A stretch of DNA of 64,000 nt, taken from the NCBI GenBank assembly GCA_025558095.1, contig JAIVFI010000013.1, positions 558,001 through 622,000 on the forward strand. Direction: 5' to 3'. This document shows, piece after piece, positions 791 to 17,758 of this stretch. The position numbers and the translations under genes are program-made. Position 1 is the first letter of the stretch. Every line of letters begins with the position of its first letter. The notes under the pieces were generated by a model. The model searched no databases. It had not been told where the DNA came from and saw only the letters and a list, made by a program, of their open reading frames with translations. Origin of the DNA: Hyaloraphidium curvatum (Eukaryota; Monoblepharomycota; Hyaloraphidiomycetes; Hyaloraphidiales; Hyaloraphidiaceae).

Positions 791-1549
791 AGCGGTTCCG
801 TCCGCCGCGGCCCCGCGGCCCCGCGGCCCCGCGGCCGTGGCAAGAACGATGTGCCGGCCCGCGCGCGCGATTATTTCTCTCGCGCAGGAGACGGACGGCA
901 GGGCGCCGACGAGCAGTCCGGGCTCGACGGGGTGCGCACGGCCGTTTCGCGGGAAAACCGCGCCTCAAAGCTGGCATGGCGCACGTGGAGTTGCGCGCAC
1001 GGACGCGATCCGCGGCACAAATCCCGGCCTGGACAGTGGGAAAGTGTTTCGGACCTTGCGGTCAGGTGCTCGGGGTCGCGATGCTCGGGATGCGCTGGGT
1101 GGGGCTGTCGGAATGTTGGGCGGAGCGTGTCGCCGCGCGCGGACGCGGCCGTTTCCCCGGCCGGGAATCAATTGCAGTCCGTCACCTCGGTAGTTTAGGG
1201 CTCGGAAGGCGTGGTCAAAGGAATCGGGACTTGCCGTCGCATCGGGGACGGGATCGACGGCGAGCCTCGCCGGCCAGCGATGGTCCGCGTCTTTCGACCG
1301 GAACGAATCCCTTCCGGATCCGGGCGGATCGCTTCTCCATCATCATCCAGTGCATTCTAGAGACGGGCCCGCTTGATCACGCCGCCATCCTTGCGAGAGA
1401 TCGAGGGATTGAGGGACGGTGGGGATCGCAGCGACAGCCGCAGCCCTGCTTCTCTCCTCGTGGGACGCGACCCGTTAGCCCGTGACTGCTAGATGTTGGT
1501 AATAAAGATCTTCGCCGGACTCGGCCAGCTCGGGCGTGCTGGTGATTCG
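791..1549. other. Intergenic, upstream of the first ankyrin gene; holds one arm of a duplicated segment
   Basis: No convincing coding sequence. The part at about 1300-1490 matches 3315-3520 in direct orientation: both contain ccggatccSggcggatcg, then gatcgagggattgagggac, then gtgggacgcR. The rest is GC-rich promoter or UTR sequence. Confidence 0.5.
803..840. repeat. GC-only 9-bp tandem repeat upstream of the first ankyrin gene
   Basis: About four copies of the 9-mer cggccccgc lie 15-50 bases upstream of the ankyrin gene start at 790. It falls in the probable 5' UTR or core promoter and could form stable GC structure. No function is proven. Confidence 0.6.
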
Positions 1550-3040
1550 CTACAGCTCTTTCCGCAGCGCGCGCTCGGGCCCCTGCAGCTCCAGCTCCTC
1601 CTTCTTCAGCTCCAGCTCGCTCTTCTTCGCCGCGAGCTCCTTCTTGGCGGGCTCCGCCCCGCGCGCGAGGATTTCCGCCTCCTTCTCCTGCGGCCCGTCC
1701 GCCCGCTTCCGGGCGGCGATCTCGTCGAGCTTGGCCTGCACGAGCTTCCTGATCTCCGGCGGCCCGACGTCCGCGGCGGATTCGCCCGCCTTGTTCCGGA
1801 TGGTCATGTCCACGCGGTCCGTGCGGTCCAGGAGGTCGCGGACGACGTCCCCGTGCCCCTGGCGGCACGCGTGCACGAGGCCCGTGTCGCCGCCGGCGTC
1901 GACGGCGTCGGCGTCGACCCTTTTGTCCGCAAGCAGGAGGTCGACCACCTCCCGGAGCCCCTGGTAGCATGCCACGACAAACGCGGTGGGCCCGTCGAGC
2001 CCGATCAGCGCCGCCAGCATCGCGTCGAAAGCCCCGCCGTTCGGACCGTTCGGATCGATGCGCGCATCGCCCAGGAGGAGCCCCACCAGATCCGGCTTCT
2101 TCGCGAGGACCGCCGCGACCAATCCCGAGGGCCCCTGGCCGTCCCCCAGGAACGCCTCCGCGGCCCGGGGATGGGCGAGCAGGAGCTGCACGACGTCCGC
2201 GTGCCCGTTCAGGCTCGCGTAAGGGAACCCCGTGGCCCCGTCGTTGTCCCTCGCACCGACGTCGACCCGCGGATCCGCAAGGAGGAGCCGTACGATGTCC
2301 GCCCTGCCGTTGCGGCAGGCATCGTGGAGCGCCGTCTGGCCCGCGCCGTTCCTTGCGTTCACGTCGACCCTCCGGTCCGCCAGGAGCAGCCGTACCACCT
2401 CGGCGCTGCCGGCTGGAGAGCAGGCAATGTGGAGCGCCGTGGACCCCGCCCCGTCCTTGGCGTTCACGTCGAACCTGCCGTCCCCGAGCAGAAGCCGCAC
2501 GGCGCCGGCGTTGCCGGAAGCACAGGCCTCCTGGAAACCGGTCCACCCGCCGCCCGTTTTCGCCGACACGTCGACCCTGGGGTTGCCCAGCAGCAGCCGT
2601 ACGATGTCCACCTTGTTCGGAGGGCACGCGCGGTACAGCGTCCGCACTTTTGCGAGGACGCCGGCGGCGCCGTAGGATTCGTCGAGGTCGGCCGCGGCCG
2701 CGGCGGCCAGCCTGTAATGATCCCGGCAGGCGTGGTGGAAGCCCGTGGAACCGTCCGGCCCCTTGGCGTCCGGGTCGATCGCGGGGTCGTCCACCAGCAG
2801 CCGCACCACGTCGATGTGGCAATGCCGGCACGCCAGGCGGAAGCATTCCCCCCATTTGCGCCGATCCGAAGCGGCAGCAGGGTCCCCGAGCGCGCCGCCG
2901 ACGAATGTAGAGTCGCCATTGCGGCACGCATGCCGGAGCTTGTCCTGCGGCACGGGCCCCCCGTCGTTTTGGTTCCGTTGGATGAGCACGGCATCTGCAC
3001 CGAGCAAGGCGGCAAGCACCACGACAAGAATGCGGCTCAT
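1550..3040 (-). CDS. Ankyrin-repeat protein with signal peptide or anchor, tandem paralog
   Basis: A 496-residue protein from the ATG at 3038-3040. An upstream in-frame start at 3157 was not used, because MSRILVVVLAALLGADAVLI matches the start of the neighbouring paralog and forms a typical signal sequence or anchor. Residues of about 40-420 hold around ten ankyrin units (cores such as DIVRLLLADPRVDVGARD and TALHIAC). The C-terminal 60 residues are charged and heptad-like (KKELAAKKSELELKKEELEL), suggesting a coiled coil. It is divergent to the transporter at 3517, with 476 bp between. Together with the gene at 1-790 it is a tandem duplicate pair. Partner-binding role inferred; target unknown. 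Confidence 0.85.
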   Translation of the reverse strand: MSRILVVVLAALLGADAVLIQRNQNDGGPVPQDKLRHACRNGDSTFVGGALGDPAAASDRRKWGECFRLACRHCHIDVVRLLVDDPAIDPDAKGPDGSTGFHHACRDHYRLAAAAAADLDESYGAAGVLAKVRTLYRACPPNKVDIVRLLLGNPRVDVSAKTGGGWTGFQEACASGNAGAVRLLLGDGRFDVNAKDGAGSTALHIACSPAGSAEVVRLLLADRRVDVNARNGAGQTALHDACRNGRADIVRLLLADPRVDVGARDNDGATGFPYASLNGHADVVQLLLAHPRAAEAFLGDGQGPSGLVAAVLAKKPDLVGLLLGDARIDPNGPNGGAFDAMLAALIGLDGPTAFVVACYQGLREVVDLLLADKRVDADAVDAGGDTGLVHACRQGHGDVVRDLLDRTDRVDMTIRNKAGESAADVGPPEIRKLVQAKLDEIAARKRADGPQEKEAEILARGAEPAKKELAAKKSELELKKEELELQGPERALRKEL

Positions 3041-3516
3041 CGCGATGTTCCGCAACGCCTCGCTGCGACGGAGGGCAGGTGAAGGCCTGTGGCGCCGGAC
3101 TTGAGTCAGGCGTCGGGTGTTTGGCTCCGGGCCGGCCGGCGGGCCCGGCTGAGCCACGAACCCAATCCCACGGATTCCTCAAGCTCGACATTGGGATATG
3201 GACCGCTTGCCGAAAGCTTCGGGATCACTCGTTGGATCCCCTGTGCTTCTTTGGCCGTGCTTGTCCGGCCCGTCCGACGGAAGCACATGCTCGGGCACCC
3301 CCCGGGTGCGCGTTTCGGGAGCGAATCCGCTCCGGATCCCGGCGGATCGCCTTCTCCAACGTCCACTTGGTGCTCTCCGCGATGGAGCTGCTTGGCTTTG
3401 CCACCGAGCGTGCCAGGGATCGAGGGATTGAGGGACGCTGGGGACGGGGTCTGCGGCGCCGCAGCCGCACCGCAAGCCAACTTTCTTCTGGTGGGACGCA
3501 CCCCGTCCCTCCCACG
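3041..3516. promoter_or_regulatory. Divergent promoter region with second arm of the duplicated segment
   Basis: The region separates the divergent ankyrin (3040, minus) and DMT-transporter (3517, plus) starts. Bases 3315-3515 are a diverged direct copy of 1300-1490. The shared block gatcgagggattgagggac at about 3419 is followed by gtgggacgca just before the transporter ATG. No TATA-like element is obvious. Confidence 0.4.
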
Positions 3517-4710
3517 ATGACCGCGGGAGGCGAGGGCGACGCGGCGGCCGGCACCCGCGCGGCGCTGCTCTCCGCGGCGGCGCACACGGCCATGTCCGCG
3601 TGCCTCAAGGCGCTGCTGGGCGGCGGCGCGGCGGGCGCGGGGTCCCTCGGCGTGCCGCGCAGCGCGCCGGCCCTCGCGCTCGTGCGCTCCCTCGCGGCGC
3701 TCGCCGTGCTCGCGCTGTTCGTCTACGCGCCGCGCCCGGCGTGGCTCGCGGTGCCGCGCCCCGCGCGCACGCTGTTCCCCGCCGGCGCGCGCGCGCTGCT
3801 CGCCGTGCGCGCCGCGCTGGGCGGCCTGGCGAACCTGTCGCACTTTGCCGCCGTCTCGCGGCTGGACCTCGGCGTGGCCGCCGTGCTGGGCGGCCTCGGC
3901 CCGCTGATCGCCGCCGCCGCCGGCTGGGCCCTCCTGGGCGAGGCTCCCGCGCGGCACGACCTGATGGGCATGGCCTGCGCCTTTTCCGGCGTCTGGCTCA
4001 TCTCAGGCATGCCGCTACCGTTCGCCGGCAGCAGCCCCCGCGCGGCACCCGCGGTCGGCGTCGCCCTCGCCGTCCTCGCGTCGGCCGCCAAGTCGCTCGG
4101 CGCGGTGCTGGTCCGCATGCTCGCCCGCCGCCAGGGCGACCGGATCCACCCCCTGCACCTGGTCTCGGCCTACTCGATCGGCACCGCGGCGGTGGGCACC
4201 CTCGTGCTCCTCGTGCAGCCCACCCCGCCGCCCTCCCCGGGGGTATCCCCCCGCGAGCTCCCCCTCCTCGCCCTGCTCGCCCTGTCCGGGTTCGCCACGC
4301 AGCTCGCGCACGTCGTCAGCCTCTCCCACTTGCCCGCACACCGCGCCCTCCTCGTGACCTCGGCGCAGGCGGTCGCCGGCTTCGCCGCGCAGGTGGCCTT
4401 CTGGGGCACCTGGCCCGACGCAAGGACGGCGCTGGGCGGGCTGTGCGTGGTGGCGGGGGTGGCGATGGCCAGCGGGGCGGGGAAGAAGGGGTTCAAGGGG
4501 GAGAGGGAGAGGGGGGAGAACGGGCACGTTTTAGGGGTGGAGAACGGGCACGCAAAGGGGGAGGAGGCCAAGCTGGTCGCGCCGGCGGCGACGTTCGTGC
4601 CGCCGCAACTCGGAGGGGACAAGGAGACGGAGGCGCCGCTGGTCGTCGTCGAGCACGGGAGGCCGCATTCGGCGGATCCGGGGAGGGAGGAGAAGGAGGC
4701 CGTGGAGTGA
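3517..4710 (+). CDS. DMT-superfamily (EamA-like) transporter
   Basis: A 397-residue polytopic membrane protein from the ATG at 3517 (the open frame extends upstream without a good start). About ten hydrophobic helices lie between residues 15 and 325, in two halves. Features typical of EamA carriers include the loop SHFAAVSRLDLGVAAVLGGLGPLIAAAAGW and the short helix pairs around LVSAYSIGTAAVG and LSHLPAHRALLVTSAQAVAGF. The family exports or exchanges small metabolites across plasma or organelle membranes; the substrate cannot be read from sequence. The C-terminal ~75 residues are hydrophilic, low complexity and rich in Glu, Gly and Lys, a likely cytosolic tail. Single exon. Confidence 0.8.
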   Translation: MTAGGEGDAAAGTRAALLSAAAHTAMSACLKALLGGGAAGAGSLGVPRSAPALALVRSLAALAVLALFVYAPRPAWLAVPRPARTLFPAGARALLAVRAALGGLANLSHFAAVSRLDLGVAAVLGGLGPLIAAAAGWALLGEAPARHDLMGMACAFSGVWLISGMPLPFAGSSPRAAPAVGVALAVLASAAKSLGAVLVRMLARRQGDRIHPLHLVSAYSIGTAAVGTLVLLVQPTPPPSPGVSPRELPLLALLALSGFATQLAHVVSLSHLPAHRALLVTSAQAVAGFAAQVAFWGTWPDARTALGGLCVVAGVAMASGAGKKGFKGERERGENGHVLGVENGHAKGEEAKLVAPAATFVPPQLGGDKETEAPLVVVEHGRPHSADPGREEKEAVE

Positions 4711-4903
4711 TGATGGAGGCGGACATGGAGGAGGCCGGACGGGATGGATGGGTGAGTGGGACGCGATCAGAACGCTACTGCATGGGGGCTGTAGATGGTG
4801 TGATCCAGAACTAGAATGATGATCCAGAAGGGAACAGTCTAGATCTTCAGTCGACCCACGTGTCCGGGATTCGCTCCACGGCTCGCCCACGTGGGCGAGG
4901 GAT

Positions 4904-7900
4904 TCACATGCCCAACAAGGTTGCCGTTGCAGCGCCTATAGGCAGAACCTCGGCCTTCTTCGCCAACTCTAGAACCTCTTCCTGCTTCTCCTCCGGAAGC
5001 GCATTCAGCCACCCCTGAAGCTCCTCTTGGGCCTTGATTCTCCGCTCCCTCCGCGTGCGAATCTGTTGTACCACGTCCGCTGGGAAGGTAGCCTCCAGAT
5101 CCCGCACCTCCCATCGCCAGATCGACAACGGCTGTGGTCCGGTGCCATTTCGCTGCACCCCATAGTTCTTCCTCTCCGCAACGGAAGAGATGGCTTCCGC
5201 AACCACAGATGCAGACAGGTACGGCGGTGTCGGCGCTAGTTGGGGAGCTCAGAGGCGCTCGCTGGGCTTCGGATGCGAAACCCACGGTCATGCGACTCCT
5301 CCTCCTCGTAGGCACAGAGTTTCCTGAGCACTTCCTTTGCCAGCACCTCCCTGCTGGTCGTTTTGTCCTGGACCAGCCTGCCCAGCAGCGGCAGCCACTG
5401 CTCCGGAAACGTTGCGGCTGATTCAGTCTGCGTCCCGCTGAACTCCAAGAAGGTGAACATATCTTCGTGCGGGAACCTGTGAGTCGCGCGGTAGCAGAAC
5501 CAATGCACGCGAGGTGGGAACCTTTCAGGTTGTACGGAGCTGATCCGTAATCCACCTTGCTCTCTTTGAAGATGACCCTCCCATTCTCCACTTGCGCCGC
5601 CGTCGACTCCAGGATAGCCTCGTGAACAGGCGCGCGGCCTCTCTCCGCGCTCTTGCCGTCGCCGGGAGCCCGCCCTGCCCGCGTTTCGGCCTTGGTTTGC
5701 CGGCGGTGTCTTCTCTGCATCTCCTTCAACCTCTCTGCTAACATGCCAGGATCCTTGACTGTCGCGCAAAGCCGCTCAACCAACGAGATACCAATCTTCT
5801 CTACGTCCAGCTGGAACGCTTCCATCGGGGAGGCTCTGCCTTCGATCGCGGACAGGAGCGCGCGGGCGCCATCGTCCCCGATCGAGTTCTTGCGGAGGTC
5901 CAGAGATGTCAGTGCCGAGCTCTCCTTCAACCCCTCTGCGAGCGCCACGGCGCCCTCGTCCCCGATGGCATTCCCGCCGAGGTCAAGGTTGGTCAGCGTC
6001 GAGTTGGCCTTGAGCGCCTCCGCCAGCGCGCGTGCGCCGCGGACCCCAATCTTGTTGGCGGCCAGGTTGAGGGTGGTCAACGCCGAGTTGACCTTTAGCG
6101 CCTCTGCGAGTGCTTGCGCACCGTCATCCCCGACCTTGTTGCTGGCCAGATACAACGTGGTCAGCGTCGAGTTCGCCCTCAGCGCATCCGCCAGCGCGAG
6201 GGTGCCGCCATCCCCGACTTTGTTCGTGTTTAGGTCAAGGCTGGTCAGCATCCAGTTTGATTTCAGCGCCTCGGCAAGCGCGCGGGCGCCCTCGAGCCCG
6301 ATGGAGGTCGCGCTCAGGTGCAGGGTGGCCAGCGACGAGTTCCCGTTTAACGCCTCTGCGATTGCGCGAACGCCCTGGTCTCCGACGCGTTCAAAGCTCA
6401 GATTTAGCTCCTTTTGCTTTGCCAGCTCGGCGCGCCAATCAGCCGGATCGTGAAGAGACACAGAGGGAATGCGCGCCCGAACTCGTACAACTTCGAGATC
6501 AAAACGCGGGGTGCCAGTGACCGGGATGCACGCCACGCCCAGGTGGTGATTTGCCCAGTAGAAGTCAAGTCCGGCGACGGAGCGCTCAGTGCCACAGCGG
6601 CAGCAGCCCGACAGGAAGCCCTTGTCGCCCGGCGGGCGGCGCAGCAGGTGATGCACGATGAGGCCCCGCCAGTCCCTGTACACTTCGAGTTGGTCGATTG
6701 GCAGAGGCCGCAGCTGCGGGAGGGAGCCGGATGGCGCGTTGGCCAGCGCTTCATCGACCCGCTTGCGGTCGGCAGCGCTAAGGCTCGCTACCGTGGCCCA
6801 CCCGCGGCCCGCGGTGCGGGGCGCCGCATCGTCCGAGGACGACGAGTCGCGATTCGCCGCGGACACCGCGATGCGTTTGCTACCTAGGTGAATTCCCTTC
6901 TTCTCTGCAAGTTTGCTGCTTGAGTACGCTTCCTCATCACTGGCAAACAAAGATTCCGAGTCGGAGCTCCCCGAAACGTACGAGCTCCCGTCCGAGCTCC
7001 CTGTGTAGACCGAGCTCCTCGAAGGCGAGTCACGCGTTGAAGAGTCCACTGGTACCGGACCGAGATGAAACGCAATATTGTCCACTGCACCCGGATCAAC
7101 GTTGTAGCTCCTGAGCACGGCTTCCTTCACGAATCCAAACACCATCTGATGCGGGTCGCGAAGCACCAGGCCCGGCGTGTCGTACAGCCGCGGCCTTGAG
7201 GGGAAGAGTAGCCGAACGACCGACAGGGCAGTATCTCTGTAGCTGCCACAGGTCCTGTACAGCTCCAGCAAGAGGTCCGTAGCCGTCCACGTCCCGTGGC
7301 TCCCTTCCCACGTTCGTCCATCCGAGAAAGCCATCTCGAGCCGGTACTCCCCAGTGAACAGGTCCTCCATGTACGATGCCAAAGGATAGATCTGCTGAAG
7401 GGTGTCTTGGTTCACCAAGTCGCGCGAGTGCTTCTGGAACTGTCCCTTCACGCTTTGTCGGATCACGTTCTCTATCGTAGAGGATGACTTCAGACGTGGC
7501 CTCTGGACCGGCATGGCGTTAGACGCCTCGCAGGACCGGGAAACTCAACTCACAAGCTTAAAGACGTCCAAATCAAACTCGACTCGGCCTCGCCCAAGAT
7601 TCATTCGCCGCGGTCTCTGAACCAATGGACCTTCCGTCGGCTCATTGCTCTGTGCGTGGCGCGCGGCGGCCGTTGCATCCGCCGTCTCCAAAAAGATCCG
7701 ATACTCCACGCGGTCCAGGAGCGCGGGCCACGTGAAGCTCTTCTCTTGGCGGTCGAATCGCTTCCAAAGCTCCTCCGCGAGTACAAAAGTGAACAGGCAC
7801 CCGTACGCCTTCTCACCGTGTTGAGCGGCGAATCCGAGGATCACATTGTCCCTGTCCACGTCGAATGGTCGGTCTTCCGTGCCCATGGATCCGCGACAAC

Positions 7901-9545
7901 AATCAAGGAGCACGACCACGAGACCGCGGTGGTCTTCCGGAATCTGGGAGACAACATCGCGTTCCAAATCAACTGTGTTGTGGTCAGCTAGAAGCGTGGT
8001 GTCCCCAGGAGCCGCGGAGACTCCTTCAAACACGAAGCGGCCCTGGCGATCCCCGCCATGCCCAACAAAATGGATGACTGATGTCCCTCGAGTATAACGC
8101 AAGCTCGAAAGCGCAGGACGAGTTGTCGCTCGGATAGCTTCGGCCGTCCAATCAGAGTGCGAACCGTTCGAAGGCAGTTCCGAAAACCCATAGAACGACG
8201 CCAGCACGATGCGCAGCAAATCAGCGCTCTCCAATGCCATGGGCAAGTTCTTTGGATGATCTGCCGGTCCAAAAGCGCCGTTGGCCACCTGCAGCACAAT
8301 GCGATTCACAGGAACTCCTGTCTCCTCGCTGGAATCGCTCGTGCTGGTCACCGCGATATCCGGGGCAGGAGCTGATTCGGTACGCGCAGGGGAGCTGAAA
8401 GAAGCTTGATTGCCAGCAAGGGTCGCTGCCGAATGCGAGTGGCTCGGGGCACTGAGGCTTCCAATGTCGGGAGCCGATGCGGCGGGACCGGAAGCCGCGT
8501 TCGAGATATCCAAGGTGCGTTGCTCAGGTCCAAGAAGCTCATCAACAACGTCGGCGAAGGAAGGGCGTTCGAACCGATCAATCTTGGCGCAGGCCGCCAT
8601 TAGACGCCACGTTTGGTCGTCGTTCGCGATCTCGTACGGACGGGTGAAGGGTAGGTCGCTCAATGAACAACGAACCACGTCCTGGAGTAAAGGAGTAAGC
8701 TCCCGCGACACCAGACTCCCAGCTACGTACCACGTTCGGACGCCCTCCGCACGACATCTCGTACGCGATCACGCCGAAGCTGTACACATCAGCAGGCTTG
8801 TCCCGCTTCGCCGGTGGTCTCCGCAGCGCTTCCGGGGGCATGTAGGATTCGGTGCCCGCGGCCGACGTCCCAGCGAGGTTGCGCAAAGTCGACAGGCCGA
8901 AGTCTGCAATCTTGTACATGCCGTCGCGGATCAAAATGTTGGCAGGCTTCAAATCGCAGTGCAAGACGCCCATCGAGTGAAGGTAAAGCATGCCCCGAGC
9001 CACCTGCAGCAGGCACTTGCGCCGCCCAGCCCACGGAAAAGCTTTTGCGCGCCCCACGTCCTCCAGTACCCTGTTCAGGTCCCCTCCATCGGCGAATTCT
9101 GACACCAGGGCGAGAGGTTCCAGGCAGTAGCCGTGGAATCGTAAAACTGAAGCCAGATCATGGGTCAGGAGGCGGCGCTGCGACGGCGGGGAAGTTCACC
9201 ATTGTCGTCGGACAGTCGCTGCCATATCTCGACTTCCTTCCTCAATGATTCTCGTAGCTCATCGTTCGAACGCGATTCCTTCAGCCTCTTGACCGCGACC
9301 GGAATGGCATGGCGAAGCTTGGCTCTATAGGCGACGGCGAAGGCACCCTCCCCAAGCTTCACGGGCTCCAGTTTCTCCATGTCCAACTTGATGTCCCCGC
9401 AGTATGATAAGAGGAAGCGAGGTCTTTTGATCCGGACGGGCCTCTCTGCACGTGTAGCGCCCGCTCCGGCCCCAGGCGGCGGTGGAGGGGAAAGCGCGTC
9501 GAGAGAGAGAGAACTCCCTCCATCACGGCCCAAATTGCCGGCCAT
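4904..9545 (-). CDS. Kinase / caspase-like / unknown domain / LRR fusion protein
   Basis: Six-exon model: 9545-9200, 9146-8731, 8681-7554, 7502-5536, 5476-5286, 5235-4904. Introns are 53, 49, 51, 59 and 50 nt, all GT-AG; the sum is 4380 nt, a 1459-residue protein. Residues ~60-300 form a TKL-type kinase: glycine loop LGEGAFAVAY, VAVK lysine, HCDLKPANIL catalytic loop, ADFGL, and PPEAL in the APE position. Residues ~385-630 form a caspase-like (clan CD, C14) domain with a His motif FVGHGG and a Cys motif LLDCCRGS. Residues ~665-770 carry an unrecognised domain (YPLASYMEDLFTGEYRLEM and following) shared with the paralog at 12235-15262. A Ser-rich linker and a CCRC...HH cluster precede seven 28-residue LRRs of the NLR/ribonuclease-inhibitor type (~990-1200). 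The tail is helical and charged. The GTGAGT donor at 7553 precedes an in-frame TGA; without splicing the protein would stop after the caspase domain. Architecture suggests a receptor coupling sensing to phosphorylation and proteolysis (inference). Confidence 0.8.
5920..6420 (-). repeat. 84-bp tandem units encoding seven leucine-rich repeats
   Basis: Within the fusion gene, 28-codon units repeat with the core S(A/T)LT(S/T)L(D/Y/N)L...NxIGDxGAxALAEALK. The period of 84 bp and near-uniform spacing are typical of NLR-type LRRs. Similar neighbouring units could allow unequal recombination. Confidence 0.8.
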
Positions 9546-9917: not shown

Positions 9918-10140
9918 TTACATAGCGTCGAGGATCGCCAACAGCCCATGCGCCACCTCGGCAGACTCCGGCTGCGCCGACAGGCCGAGCTCGCGCGGAT
10001 CGAAGGTATCTGGCCATGCCAGAGGAGTTCTGAGGCGGTCATGCCGAATGCATAAACGTCCGTTGTCGCTGTGCCCGGTCTAGGCGGCCTCGCAAAAGCT
10101 GGAAGTGACTGGTGGATCATTTCAGCGATTTGATGGAGCA
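9918..10140 (-). pseudogene. Protein-kinase C-lobe relic
   Basis: A short stretch reads ARPPRPGTATTDVYAFGMTASELL, which lines up with the post-activation segment of the neighbouring kinases (for example RRPPAKRDKPADVYSFGVIAYEM). The frame then shifts by one, and the next frame continues as PDTFDPRELGLSA...LLAILDAM to a TAA at 9918-9920, like a kinase C-terminus. No N-lobe or catalytic loop is present upstream before the next gene ends at 10337. It looks like the remains of another copy of the local kinase family. An unrecognised small intron is less likely because no GT-AG pair fits the frame change. Confidence 0.55.
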
Positions 10141-10336
10141 ACACACGCACGGATCCACCCACCCTCCTGCGCCACGGACACCGGCATTACTCCACCTGCT
10201 TGGTTGCAAGACTGCAGATGGCCCACCCCGACATCGTCCAAGAGATTGTTCTCGCTTGGGGTCGAGATCCACAACCGGATTCGGCCTCGAACGAAGGTGG
10301 TCCATCCCGAGCTCAACCCGGAAAGGGATGGAATGA

Positions 10337-12200
10337 TCACGGCAGCTTGGCCTCCAGCGCCCACAGCCGCTGGTACACCTCCGGGAACCGCGGCCGGTCC
10401 TCGGGCTTCTCCTTCCAGCAGTCCCCCATGATGACCCACAGCTCCTCGTTCGCGCCCTCGGGCTTGCTCGGCCGCTTGCCCTCCACCCTCACCAGCTTCA
10501 TGATCTGCACGGGGGGCGGGGTCGTAAGATGCGGCGGGCACGGAACGCGAGGGAGGACCCACCATGGGCTGGTTGCCCCTGGCCTCGTAGAACGGGAAGA
10601 GGCCCTTGCTCACCACCTCGTACGCCACCATCGCGAAGGCGTAGACGTCGGCCGGCGGCTTGAGCGACTGCGTGTACCGCTCGGGCGCCTGGCGGCCAAA
10701 GATGGATCAGCGCCCCGACCACGAACGCCAGCTCCCACCCGAACGAACCATGAAACCGGGAGTCCCGCCCCATCCCTGCCCCGACATCGTCAGCGCCACC
10801 CGATCCCTCAGCCTCGACATGCCAAAATCCGTGATCAGCGCTCTCCCGTCGTCCACCAGTATGTTGTGCCCCTTCAAGTCCCCGTGCAGCACCGGCGTTG
10901 GCAGCGAGTGCAGGTAGGCCATCCCCAGCGCGACCTCCTTGAGGAGCTTCACGCCGATTTTGAGGTCCCAGTTGCGCTTGGAAAGGTACGTGCGGAGGTT
11001 GCCCTCCCGGACGAGCGCCGAGATCATCATGGGAGGGTCCTCGCAGTAGGCCATGAGTGGGAGCACTGCCGGGCCTCAGCCGCCGTGCGAGAGGTTAACA
11101 CCGGCCGTGAGCGACCCACCGTGCCTGTGCCGCAGCTTCTGCCACATCCGCACCTCCTTCTTGAAGTCCGCCCGCGTGCGCTCGTCCACGTTGCCCTTGA
11201 TCACCTTGACCGCAACCTTGTTGGACTTGAACAGCACGCCCCGGTACACCACGCCGAACCCGCCCGCGCCGAGCTTCTGGCTCTCGTCGTAGACCACGTC
11301 GTACGCCTCGATCCGCAGTTCGTCGGGCTCTTCGGAGCGGGGGCCGGAGCCGCCGCTCGCGGAGGTCGGGGGGGTGGCGGGGGAGCTGCCGGCGGCGGCG
11401 GGGGAGCCATGCCGGTCCGGTCGGGGGGGGTCGGGGGAGATGAGCATCACCGGGGGGGAGGCCGGAGGGACGACCACGGGCCGCCGGACGGGCGGCGCGG
11501 GGGGCGGGTAGACGGGTTTGGCGGGGATGGCGGCGGCTTGCGCGGCGGGGGCGTCGTCGGGCCGGGGGCGGAGGTTGGCGGGGGCGGCGACGGGTGGGGG
11601 GATAAATTGCTGCGGGGGGCGGAAGACGGGGGGTTGCAAACGGGGGGCGGGGATCGGGGCCGGCGGGCCGTCGATTGGCGAGAACGGGACCCCGGCGGGG
11701 GTCCCCTGCTGGAGCGGCATGGCGATCGGCGCCGGGACGGGGCCCGCGGCGCCGACGACGGGCGACTGGGGGACTGGGGCCTCATCCGACTTGCGGTCGT
11801 CGATCTTGCGGTGCCCAAAGATCTTGCCCAGGCCGCCAAAGAGCTTGTGGCCGCCGGCGGGCGCGGGCTTGTCTGATCCAGCGTTGCTTCCCCCAAAGAG
11901 GGCGTTCCACTTGGCGGCGACATTGCCCGCGGAAGGGCGGCCCGCGGCGGCGGCGGGAGGAGACGGTGGCCGGGGGATCTCAGGTTGGGGAATGTTGGAG
12001 TACCGGTTCGGCTCGAGGCGCGAAATCTCAGGTTGAGGAATGTTGGAGTACCAGTTCGGCTCGACGCGCGAGTTGAGCTTCTCGAGCAGGTCGGTCGAGC
12101 GCTCGATGAGCGAGTTCCAGCGGTCGAAGAGGGTGTACTCTGAGATGGGCACGTCGAGCGAGGCGATGGACGCCTGGATCTCGCTCAGCTGTCGCCGCAT
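10337..12200 (-). CDS. Proline-rich TKL-type protein kinase
   Basis: Four exons: 12200-11120, 11065-10749, 10688-10563, 10504-10337. Introns are 54, 60 and 58 nt, all GT-AG; the total is 1692 nt, 563 residues. Residues ~1-75 are helical; ~75-300 are Pro/Ala-rich with two tandem YSNIPQPEI units and the motif AGGHKLFGGLGKIFGHRK. The same motif appears near the C-terminus of the neighbouring kinase-caspase protein. The kinase domain (~300-560) has LGAGGFGVVY, VAVKVIK, HGDLKGHNIL, TDFGM and APERY, so catalytic residues are intact. The first kinase intron sits at the same codon position and phase as in both kinase-caspase genes. The ATG at 12198-12200 is only 34 nt after the stop of the upstream gene on the same strand, so this may be the 3' part of one larger gene. 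Confidence 0.7.
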
Positions 12201-12234: not shown

Positions 12235-15200
12235 TTAGCGATAGGAGGGCAACCGATGGTCTGGACAACCCATGTTCGGGGTCGTGGCCGGCAGCTCGCC
12301 CTCAAGTGCGCCGCGGAGGTCGCTCGGCAGTGACAGTGGCATCGTGGGCGCCTGGTGCATCGCCTGGCGACTGAGCGTGTCGAGGAGGGCATCGAACAAG
12401 TTGATCCGACTCCTGACAGAGGCGAGTTCGCTGTCCTCGACATCCTCGACTGGGGCGAAGACGGGCAACTGGGGCGGCACCACCTCGTTGGACTCGCGCT
12501 CCCCGGCCTTGCGGTGCTCAAAGACGTTGCCCAGACCGCCAAAGAGCTTGTGGCCGCCGGCGCGCGAGGTTTTGGCCTGACCAGCGTTGTTGCCCCAAAA
12601 GAGGGCTTTCGGCTTGGTGACGGAGAAGAGTGCGCCTCCAACGGCATCCTTGACCGGGGAGGAGGCAGGCAGACCATGCGATCGCGGAAGGTGTGCGGAG
12701 AAAACTTCTGATTCGGGCTCCAGTGGAGCCGCCCCGCGGTTGGAAAGCGAGTGATCAAGGAGAAACATCGTCTCCAGCTGGCCCGTTGCAGTTGGATCCC
12801 GCGTATCACGATAGCTTTCAAGCACGGCTTCCTTCACGAATCCAAACACCATCTGATGCGAGTCACGAAGCACCAGACCCCGCGTATCGTACAACCGCGG
12901 TTCGGAGGAGCAGAGCAGCCGTACGACCGACACCGAAGCATCACGGTAGCTGCCACAGGTCCTGTACAGCTCCAGCAAGAGGTCGGTCGCCGTCCACGTT
13001 CTGTGGCTCCCTTCCCATGTTCGTCCGTCCCAGAAAACCATCTCGAGCCGGTACTCCCCAGTGAACAGGTCCTCCATGTACGTTGCTAAGGGATAGCTCT
13101 GCTGAAGCTTCTCCAAATCCTGAAGGTCTTGCGCACGAAGCCGGAACTCCTCGCCCAGCCGGGCCCGCTGCCGGTATTCTTTCGCGTCAGTGGTCTTAGA
13201 ACGAGGATTCTGTGAAGAAGGCGCTCAGAATCATCCTGGGCAAGACTGACCGGGACCAAGTCAACTCACGAGTCGAAACGAGTCCTTCTCCCAGTCAACG
13301 TGACCACGACCGAGATTCACATGCCGTGGCTGCTGAACGAATGCAGGCCCGGTTGGCGGTCCGCCTTGCGGAAACGCAGCCGCAACAGCTGTTCCGGCTA
13401 CAATCCGCTGGTCCACGTCATCAAGAAGCGCGCGCCACGTGAAGCCCTGCTCCTGTCGGTCGAACCGTTTCCAAAGCTGCTCAGCGAGCACGAAAGTGTA
13501 CAGGCACCCGTAAGCCTTCTCCCCGTGCCGAGCGGCGAAGCCGAGGAGCACATTGTCCCTGTCCACGTTGAACGGTCGGTCCTCGGTGCCCACAGATCCG
13601 CGACAGCAATCAAGTAGCACAACGACGAGACCGCGGTGTTCTTTCGGAATCTGCTTAATGATATCGCGCTCCAAGTCCAGCGTGTTGCGGTCGGCCGGCG
13701 GGGTGCCGTCCGTCGCGGGTGACGAGACTCCTTCGAACACGAACCGGCCCTGTCGATCCCCTCCATGTCCAACGAGATGGACAATCGACGTTCCTTGAGC
13801 AGCCCCGAGACTCGAGAGCGCAGGACAAGCAGCAGTCCGGATAGCTGCGGCACTCTGATCGTACGACGGCGATCCATGGAACCCGTAGAAGGACACGAGG
13901 ACCGTCCGCAGCAGATCGACGCTCTCAGAGGCCATCGGCAGGTTCTTGGGATGATCCGTTGGTCCGTAGCCACCGTTCGCAACTTGGAGCACGATGCGGT
14001 CCGCGGCCCGTTCCTCCTTTTCGGGCCGGCCGGTCGCGGCCATCGATAGGCTGCTCACATTCGGTAATGACAGGCTGCCCACATCCGGTGCCAATAAGCT
14101 GCTCACGTCCGGTACAGATCCGCCTTGAGCCAAACTAGACGACGGAGCATTGCCCACGGAAGGCGAAAGCATGTGGGATTGCGGTGCAGGAACTTCAATC
14201 CGGGGTTCCGAGAGCGCGCTCTCCAAGCTTTGGACAATGGCGAAGAAGGAAGGGCGGAGGAAGGATTCCACGTGCGTGCAGGCTGTCATGAGCCGCCACG
14301 CTTGTTGGTCGTCCGAGATTGCGTACGGGGGTCCCGGTGCCAGTGAGCTTCCACTGATGAGGAACTCCACCCGATTCTGCAAGCCGCCGTGTTACGAGAC
14401 GAGGATCTCATATCGAATTGGCCCAAGAGACGTACCACAGGTGGGCGCTCCCCGCAAGCAAGCTCGTAGGCAACCATTCCGAAACTGTACACGTCACCAG
14501 GTTTGTCACGTGGTGCCGGTGGACTCCGTAACGTTTCCGGAGGCAAGTATGAACGAGTTCCCGCGCTCGACCTCCCCGCAAGATCCCGCAGGGTCGAGAG
14601 CCCAAAGTCCGCGACCTTGTAGACGCCATGGTCGACTAGGATGTTGGCGGGCTTCAAATCGCAATGGAGAATGTCATTCGAATGAAGGTAGCGCATGCCC
14701 CGGGCAACCTGGAGCAAGCAGTCCTTGAAACCCGAAATCGGAAAACAATCCGGCCGTCCCGAAGCCCTCAGCTCCCTCAACAAGCGATCCAGGTCCCCGC
14801 CACTGGCCAGCTCCGATACCATCGCAGGGGGATCGTCGCAGTAGCCGTGGAAAATGAGCACTGGAACCCGAGCCCGATGAGCAAGAAGGTGGGCGCGTCG
14901 CACAGCGGGAGCCCACCGTTCCTGTCCCTAAGCTTCTGCCAGACCTCGACCTCGGCTTTCAGTCCTTGCAGAAGCTTCTGTCGGTCAGCTCCAGGCCTTT
15001 GGTGGAGGATCTTCACGGCGACCGGCGTCGCCCGTTTGAGCTTCGCCCTGTACGCGACCCCGAAGGCTCCCTCGCCGAGCTTCACGGGCTGCAGCGTCTC
15101 CAGGTCCGTGTCAAGCTCGACATGGTCACGGAAGGAGAGGAAGAAGTCTGGCCGTTCCACCCGGACGCCGTCTCGAAGCACTGAGCCCGCCGCGGCGGCC

Positions 15201-15262
15201 GGCGGGGGAGGCAACGGCTGCTCGCCCAAAGGGCGCGGATCCTCGCCCGGGCCATCGGCCAT
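12235..15262 (-). CDS. Kinase / caspase-like / unknown domain protein (paralog without LRRs)
   Basis: Four exons: 15262-14917, 14860-14436, 14376-13270, 13209-12235. Introns are 56, 59 and 60 nt; the total is 2853 nt, 950 residues. Exon 1 is 346 nt, exactly as in the fusion gene at 4904-9545, and intron positions and phases match. The kinase (~60-300) has LGEGAFGVAY, VAVKILH, HCDLKPANIL, ADFGL and PPETL. The caspase-like domain (~385-625) has LVGHGG and LLDCCRGS. The unknown domain (~660-755, YPLATYMEDLFTGEYRLEM) follows a GTGAGT-TTCTTCACAG intron that removes an in-frame TGA. In place of LRRs it has a short tail with AGGHKLFGGLGNVFEHRK. The stop is TAA at 12235-12237. Joint signalling and proteolysis role inferred from domains; substrates unknown. 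Confidence 0.78.
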
Positions 15263-15613: not shown

Positions 15614-17383
15614 CTAAGACGGGCACATGCTCTGCACGGTGAACGACACGCCCGCGCCGCGCAGCACGCTCCACAGCGCCACGCCCAGCGTCACCGCCGT
15701 CACCGCCAGCGTCTTTGCGAGGCCCCACGTCACAGGGATACCCAGGAAGGTAGCCCTGAGTCCCTCTGCGGTGCCGAAGGCGGCCAGGAACCCCGCGTGG
15801 GCCTCGAGCTCCGCAGCTGCTTGCGCACGGCGGGGATCGGGCGGCAGCCGCGCGGCCTCGGCCAGCATGCCGCGGATGGAAAAGACGGCGTCGGTGTAGG
15901 TCCTCGAGAGCGCGTCGATCTGCTGGTTGATGGCCGGGAGGTCGGATGTATCCACGACGATGATGTAGAGGGCGACAACGATGTTGAGGATGCACCAGAG
16001 GGTGATGCAGCCGCCAGCAGCCAGGTTCACGGCAATCGCGACAAGCTGCACCACCGGAAAGAAGGAGATGATCAGGCTCATGAAGGTTGGGGGCCCGGCA
16101 AACACCTTGCGCGGGCCTGTGCGCTCCCATTTGGCGCGATAGCCCAGGTGCAGCCGGACGTAGAGTTCGGAGGTGGTGGTTCCAGCCTCGGGGACGCCGC
16201 CACTGGGATCGTCCGAGGTCGCGAAGAGCAAGCGCCGGCGGTAGCGATCGAGCAGGTCCTGGATCGCGCGGAAGCTGGCACGGAGGTAGATGCGGGTCTC
16301 CAGATCTGTCTCGGCGGAGCTGTCCGAACCAAAACGCATGACAATGCCCGACAGGTTGTACACTAGAATGGCGGCGACTTGCGGCCCGGGAAGAATGATG
16401 TCGGTGAATGTGACGATGACCGCCGTTCGCAATCACTCACATAGCAAAACTCCCAGGGCCACGTAGGCTCCCGACGCCCAGAAAAAGGAGCCGTAGTATA
16501 CAAGGGGCGTCCAGCACGAGGCAAACAGGACGAGCACGTTGAACCCGTTCAGCGGAACGGTCCGCAATGTGCGCTCCCAGAAGCTCCAAGCAAGAACTGT
16601 GCGGGAACAGCACGTATGACATGGGCACGCGTCGTCGCCGTCCACGTGGGCCAGTAGCGGCGCCCCTGCTAAAACCGCCTGGCCCCAGCGGTGGAGGCCC
16701 GAGAGCGCGCGCGCCAGGAGCACTTCACGCCTGGGCAAGCCGCGCGTGGCGGCGAGCATAAAGACGTGCATGACGATGCCGGCAGCCATCACCATGGCCA
16801 GTGCGGTCATGCCCGCGGCGAGCTGCGGCGTCCCGAAGGTTCCGCCGCCGAAGGAGAAGACGGCGGCGTTGGCGGCCAACGTGCACGCCGTGCAGGCCGC
16901 AAAGGTCAACAGGAACGTACGAGATGTTCCGATATGCAGCGCCGCCGCTGCGGCGACCGCGTCCACCATGCGGAGCAGTCGAATCTCGCCCAGCGCTGCG
17001 AGGGTCGCGCGAAGTTCGTCCGGCGTCGGCGGCGCGGCGTCCTCCGCGGTCAGCAACTCCTTGGCGTCGTCCGGCTCGTCCGCGAGGGAGATGGGGAAAG
17101 ACGGCCGCGCACTGACGGCCGGCGGCGGCGGCGGGAAGATGGCGGCGAGTTCGACCGCGCTGAACTCCAGCGGTGCCGCGCCGGGGGCGGGCTGTCCGTT
17201 CATGCCCGCCGGGTCACGATCCAGCTCGATCTCCTCTCGATACGAGACGGGAATGCCGGCCGATTTCGGACTCGTGGGCCGAAAGCGTGGAGATTCGTCC
17301 GCCAACGCGTCCCGAAGAGGGGCCGACGGCGGCGCGTCCTGCGGGTGCGGCGGCCCGCCATCGCGGCCCAAACCGCCGGACAT
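15614..17383 (-). CDS. Polytopic membrane protein sharing the N-terminal leader of the kinase-caspase proteins
   Basis: Two exons, 17383-16441 and 16377-15614, around a 63-nt GTGAGT...CGCAAG intron; 1707 nt, 568 residues. The first ~60 residues (MSGGLGRDGG..., then SYREEIELD) resemble the leader before the kinase domain in both kinase-caspase neighbours (MAGNLGRDGG..., SYCGDIKLD; MADGPGEDPR..., SFRDHVELD). After a hydrophilic stretch come about six to seven hydrophobic segments, including FLLTFAACTACTLAANAAVF, MTALAMVMAAGIVMHVFML, LVYYGSFFWASGAYVALGVL and a C-terminal helix before FTVQSMCPS. No family recognised. It is co-directional with the kinases, 351 bp upstream of the nearest. A membrane anchor or sensor partner is plausible but unproven. 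Confidence 0.7.
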
Positions 17384-17758
17384 CGCAGACTGCGTTGCCC
17401 TCAACGGGCGGGAGCGTCACCTCGACCCCGCAGCGGCGCAGTGCGAGGAACGGGGCGGCCGGGGGATTGTTGTCTCGAACGCTGCCTCGGTCTGGACCGC
17501 CTGTACTCACCGGACAACCCCTCAGACTAGGCAGGGTCCTTTCCATCGCGAGAGCACAAGGCATTGCCCGACCTTGCTCCGACGACCTTCCCTCCGGACC
17601 CTGGCCGGACAGCACCTCGAATGAGAACGACCGCCTTGGCCGCACATGAACAACGGACGGGTCGGACGCGCAGCGGCGAGAAAGCCCGGCATCCCTGCAT
17701 CGCCACCCGGGTGGCATTCCTTCCATTCACGTCCCATCCGCTCGCACGTCCGCCCCCG
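17384..17758. other. Intergenic, no gene seen
   Basis: 375 bp between the membrane-protein start and the 3' end of the SGNH-type fragment. No supported coding sequence or structured RNA was recognised. Confidence 0.4.

Follow-up and report, generated by a model that had tools for sequence, protein, structure and literature searches.

Organisation of the W1 gene

The window analysed here is a stretch of 64,000 nucleotides from Hyaloraphidium curvatum (contig JAIVFI010000013.1, positions 558,001 to 622,000), and close to its start lies a minus-strand gene that we call W1 (Table 1). Its six exons (9545-9200, 9146-8734, 8681-7554, 7502-5536, 5476-5286 and 5235-4904) are separated by introns of 53, 52, 51, 59 and 50 bp, all five with GT-AG ends, and give a coding sequence of 4377 nt, that is 1458 residues and a stop; use of another donor in intron 2 would make the protein one residue longer. 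The initial annotation had these exons closing on 1459 residues: the six-exon GT-AG structure is borne out, while 1459 is the number of codons with the stop included. From its N-terminus, the predicted protein runs from a TKL kinase through a low-complexity linker to a caspase-like domain and an unclassified domain, ND, followed by a Ser-rich linker, a Cys-containing module, leucine-rich repeats (LRRs) and a C-terminal module. A single open exon of 1967 bp, coding-like in its codon positions throughout, takes in ND, the Cys module and the LRRs. We confirm the gene model with this set of domains, in which the LRR part probably has no promoter or start of its own.

Table 1. Features of the W1 locus (positions within the window)
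Feature	Position	Strand	Basis or remark
W1, whole gene	4904..9545	-	six exons, 1458 aa
TKL protein kinase domain, residues 59-303	8532..9371	-	two introns inside; Pfam, PDB relatives
Caspase-fold (Peptidase_C14) domain, residues 375-629	7554..8318	-	Pfam; AF2 with Foldseek/VIA
Putative catalytic His461 codon (VGHGGDR)	8058..8060	-	invariant in 5 paralogues
Putative catalytic Cys515 codon (LLDCCRG)	7896..7898	-	invariant in 5 paralogues; aligns with MALT1 Cys region
Intron 3, joins caspase to ND	7503..7553	-	51 bp, phase 0; holds in-frame TGA 7545-7547
ND, unclassified alpha/beta domain, residues 630-770	7080..7502	-	in 5/5 family members
Cys-containing module (GWATV...SGCCRCGTER), residues 861-960	6510..6809	-	relative in contig C4 gene
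Seven 28-residue leucine-rich repeats, residues 991-1186	5832..6419	-	Pfam LRR_6
C-terminal module	4907..5616 (about)	-	two introns; relative on contig C34
W2, paralogue (kinase-caspase-ND, unlike tail)	12235..15262	-	tandem with W1

The kinase, first described as intact-looking, scores 113.7 bits in Pfam with its second exon alone, retains the VAVK, HCDLKPAN and DFG motifs, and has CERK1, CTR1, RIPK4, TAK1 and RIPK3 as its closest solved relatives in the PDB, a set that includes both plant receptor kinases and RIPKs. With its kinase fold, its VAVK, HxD and DFG motifs and its TKL relatives, it is a TKL kinase as annotated. The annotated count of seven repeats also stands (LRR_6, 104-108 bits), but to call them NLR-type was too strong, given that W1 contains no nucleotide-binding domain and that the repeats are of the RI-like class, which occurs in about 60 places in this genome. 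We likewise rejected W1 as an NLR (STAND) receptor because it has no NACHT or NB-ARC domain; these domains are absent from W1 by Pfam, and an exon-by-exon search, which does not prove genome-wide absence, detected none in the genome. Tandem clusters of LRR genes of the same 28-residue class lie on contigs C6 (8-24 kb) and C33 (492-529 kb), and in the C6 cluster at least one gene (L056) also encodes ankyrin repeats with a TKL kinase.

What was initially taken for a single novel domain proves to be two unrelated things, ND and the Cys module, to which the C-terminal module has to be added. ND matched no Pfam family, no solved relative (E 1.8) and no known fold (best E 0.47), and we therefore dropped a guess of a beta-grasp; nor were relatives found in viral contigs, in a scan that reaches close relatives only. 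The Cys module is 59% identical over about 97 aa to its relative on contig C4, and the C-terminal module is shared with a gene on contig C34 that has no LRR; its exons there are 54-81% identical, and both introns are conserved. On contig C4 the SGCCRC module of W1 recurs in L021 (G000:C4:140500-150000, 4766-5062 minus), a protein that is otherwise unlike W1, lacks LRRs and has a predicted coiled coil.

The caspase-like domain

A search of the genome (31.9 Mb in 55 contigs) showed the caspase part to recur in four more genes, at 51-69% identity: W2 in this window, L018 and L019 on contig C30, and L020 on C23. Peptidase_C14 is matched by W1 at 23.8 bits (range 22-24; gathering cut-off 21.4) and by all five paralogues, at best with 2.6e-8. 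The clan-CD His/Cys dyad read initially from VGHGG and DCCRG holds up, since both residues are invariant among the five diverged paralogues, as are their surroundings, VGHGGDR.GRFVFEG and LLDCCRG..G.EDRPF. In a template-free AF2 model built from the five-sequence alignment, and of low confidence (mean pLDDT 49), H461 and C515 sit where predicted strands 80-84 and 134-138 end. Foldseek searches with this low-confidence model returned caspase-superfamily chains as all of the top 48 matches (best E 2.4e-3), and VIA-align gave Z values up to 9.5 over 188 residues spanning 1-251, almost all of the domain (rmsd 4.2), with Arabidopsis metacaspase 4 among the matches. With a C14 score above the cut-off, a dyad following two core strands and a caspase fold, the last in a model of low confidence, we regard the W1 domain as a member of the caspase superfamily and a putative peptidase.

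The metacaspase motifs G-C-x-N-D and D-x-C-H-S-G are absent from W1, which has LESAD and DCCRG instead, and by these defining motifs W1 is not a metacaspase. The best solved sequence relative is MALT1, at a non-significant E of 0.06-0.1; that match, together with the failure of Pfam to find Ig or death domains in W1, led us to reject a paracaspase as well. A profile comparison with the metacaspases of the same genome was weak (probability 24%), scans of prokaryote contigs, viral contigs and plasmids, which reach close relatives only, gave no relatives of the caspase part, and the best E from PADLOC was 0.027. Where the metacaspase GCIND motif has its acidic residue, the family has an invariant Ser (motif alignment by eye). 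We take the Asp before the putative catalytic Cys to be that of metacaspases and MALT1, and the Ser to replace the other S1 acid, so that a cleavage preference cannot be read from the Asp alone.

The comparison between paralogues also bears on whether the domain cleaves anything. In the caspase part pN is 0.17-0.32 against a pS of 0.55-0.83, indicating purifying selection, and in ND too non-synonymous change is well below synonymous. Such strong selection, together with the invariance of the His, the Cys and their surroundings, makes it unlikely in our judgement that the domain is merely a scaffold or pseudo-protease, one that dimerises and regulates the kinase without cleavage, much as c-FLIP acts on caspase-8. 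In favour of a scaffold, MALT1, the nearest solved relative, functions as one too, and the exchange of the GCIND acid for Ser points that way. There is also a bacterial precedent, in that about 70% of the caspases at the effector position of vWA systems lack catalytic activity (PMC7159879).

Kinase, caspase and ND in a single chain

The W1 model was drawn from DNA alone, an in-frame TGA stands right after the caspase exon, and an ATG lies just ahead of ND, at about 7514. Kinase-caspase, ND and LRR could on these grounds be neighbouring genes joined by an artefact of the gene model, and the initial annotation had itself named transcripts stopping at the TGA, and hence two genes, as the case against a single protein. 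However, intron 3 keeps both its residue position and its phase, 0, across all five paralogues (51, 60, 55, 57 and 55 bp), and in L018 and L020 the length of the gap is not divisible by three, meaning that only splicing restores the frame. Furthermore, four of the five (W2, L018, L019 and L020) have no ATG or methionine upstream of the conserved part of ND. Separate genes are unlikely because the intron is conserved in five genes and ND is without its own ATG in four; taking into account also the open exon that ND shares with the LRRs, we consider the artefact highly improbable.

Intron 1 is likewise common to all five members, and intron 2 to four. The fusion of caspase and ND in one chain is thus well supported by comparison of the paralogues, as is the kinase-caspase-ND architecture: all four paralogues have, like W1, a kinase upstream and ND downstream of the caspase, and this same order and the shared introns uphold the earlier claim of one polypeptide with a kinase and a caspase-like protease.

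A five-member family with variable tails

Beyond ND the family members differ. The tail of W1 consists of LRRs, that of L019 of ankyrin repeats followed by a kinase, that of L020 is short and that of W2 is unclassified, while in L018 the frame continues into the beginning of a further kinase, possibly a second kinase of the same protein, the gene border there being ambiguous. The LRR, treated initially as a fixed part of the design, is present in only one member of the five. As judged from these sequences, the conserved core is kinase-caspase-ND, with the tails differing and the LRR outside the core. This fungus has genes for at least five proteins in which a protein kinase and a caspase-like protease form one molecule, and the main point of interest is this five-gene fused family with its exchangeable tails, rather than the LRR alone.

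The kinases combine with other modules too. Downstream of sister kinases that lack the caspase come further kinases (L058, L059) or Sel1 repeats (L060), and elsewhere in the genome there are LRR-ankyrin-kinase and LRR-kinase genes (L055, L056). In the kinase tree the caspase-fused kinases are not one clade, and L020, which has the caspase, and L059, which does not, are closest neighbours (99/97), suggesting that modules have been exchanged recently. Such free combination of a large kinase family with kinase, ankyrin, LRR and Sel1 modules, and the scatter of the fused kinases over the tree, would also suit fungal TKL kinases of an ordinary signalling or developmental type with shuffled accessory domains, in which the caspase trims its own kinase and there is no immune role. 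We hold this to be rather unlikely, as fast module exchange, variable repeat tails and tandem clusters would seem a better fit to genes of non-self recognition than to conserved developmental kinases.

Several neighbouring features deserve mention. Between W1 and W2 (window 10100-12200 minus) lies a gene for a TKL kinase that has the motif GGHKLFGGLG in common with the W2 tail; W2 may form a single gene with it, as in L019. A predicted membrane-protein frame at window 16433-17416 minus opens with the leader of the family kinases (GRDGG...YREEIELDRDP), and this common leader suggests an exchange of first exons. An ankyrin-repeat protein adjoins the family cluster (window 1377-3224 minus), and L020 adjoins a strong two-exon match to fungal alpha-aminoadipate reductase (Lys2; 683 and 746 bits), a sign that the genome is fungal.

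A possible clustering-activated sensor enzyme

Initiator caspases are activated by proximity, and by analogy W1 most likely works as a receptor-coupled initiator protease. More specifically, we propose that W1 is an intracellular modular sensor enzyme, with a kinase triggered by clustering and a protease activated by proximity, a proposal for which we judge the chances to be evenly balanced. The tail (LRR and C-terminal module) would bind a ligand or partner and cluster W1; the clustered kinases would phosphorylate each other and the linkers; adjacent caspase domains would thereby be brought together and activated; and the protease would then cleave itself or nearby substrates. A recognition event would in this way become irreversible as a signal, perhaps for cell death or a non-self response. 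The proposal is favoured by the conserved core and introns, the selection on caspase and ND, the invariant dyad, the C14 and fold matches, the TKL kinase with its relatives, the exchangeable tails and the similar plan of bacterial conflict systems. Counting against the sensor enzyme are the low confidence of the caspase model, the non-significant E-values against solved caspases and the fact that ND has no known fold. An immune or cell-death role of the family may be conjectured by analogy; it is important to note that RI-like LRRs are frequent in housekeeping proteins too, which counts against it.

Animals keep phosphorylation and proteolysis in separate signalling proteins, and animals, plants and bacteria couple recognition to caspase-like proteases by way of adaptors, filaments or operons. 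If the sensor-enzyme proposal is true, one chain would do the job of the separate animal RIPK kinases and caspase-8, offering a simple, testable receptor for a fungal non-self response or regulated death, and it may help to explain recognition in a fungus without detectable NACHT or NB-ARC genes. A broader reading, tentative and in our view doubtful, is that of an NLR-independent eukaryotic recognition system, whose core would gain interchangeable sensor tails by recombination between tandem genes, to yield receptors of one chain able both to phosphorylate and to cleave, and whose caspase would form a lineage of its own, apart from metacaspases and paracaspases.

Comparison with known systems

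The pairing of a TKL kinase with a caspase-fold protease recalls RIPK and caspase-8 of animals, and RIPK4 and RIPK3 are among the solved relatives of the W1 kinase. Unlike these, which are separate proteins held together by death domains, the family has both in one chain, with no death domain found. W1 resembles MALT1, its best though non-significant solved sequence relative, in the Asp before the putative catalytic Cys, but differs in lacking Ig and death domains and in carrying a kinase. No named kinase-caspase fusion turned up in the literature consulted, although one may nevertheless have been described.

A constant caspase with swappable C-terminal domains, kinases and repeats included, is also found in the bacterial EACC1 and EACC2 conflict systems (Kaur et al. 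2020, 2021), the nearest published parallel in principle. Bacterial EACC1 systems combine a constant caspase with about 50 interchangeable C-terminal domains (PMC7159879), and for EACC2 systems it has been proposed that the variable part senses and the caspase is activated as an autopeptidase (PMC8195603). The NCBIfam profile caspase_w_EACC1 (NF047832) gave 29.5 bits (E 4.8e-7) with L020 and 19.1 bits (E 7.2e-4) with W1, weak matches that both fall far below its cut-off of 140, and we did not class W1 as an EACC1-associated caspase. The present family differs from EACC systems in having a TKL kinase fixed N-terminal to the caspase, and in a eukaryote; if the sensor-enzyme proposal is true, the bacterial-style logic of constant caspase and variable tail would operate there as well.

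Among fungal proteins, NLRs (NACHT or NB-ARC with ANK, TPR or WD repeats) likewise join an effector-like domain to variable repeats, with PKinase among the effector domains and no LRRs reported in surveys (PMC4986451); W1, by contrast, has LRRs and no nucleotide-binding domain. Proteins with LRRs and a kinase but no transmembrane segment occur in B. dendrobatidis and some ascomycetes, and are few in fungi (PMC2939053). These have LRR and kinase in one chain, as W1 does, but have not been described with a protease domain.

Fungal type I metacaspases are clan CD His/Cys proteases like W1, with GCIND, SGHGG and DACHSG where W1 has LESAD, VGHGG and DCCRG, and W1 is without a Pro-rich N-terminus. 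That fungal metacaspases usually stand alone, as the initial annotation stated, fits this genome, in which one such copy (L051) has motifs of the GCIND and DxCHSG type. Another caspase-family gene, L052 (G000:C4:291500-299500, 3393-5777 minus), encodes ankyrin repeats, an FHA domain and a C14 domain in one open frame, and its C14 motifs are SGHG and, in place of DxCHSG, DGCFT.
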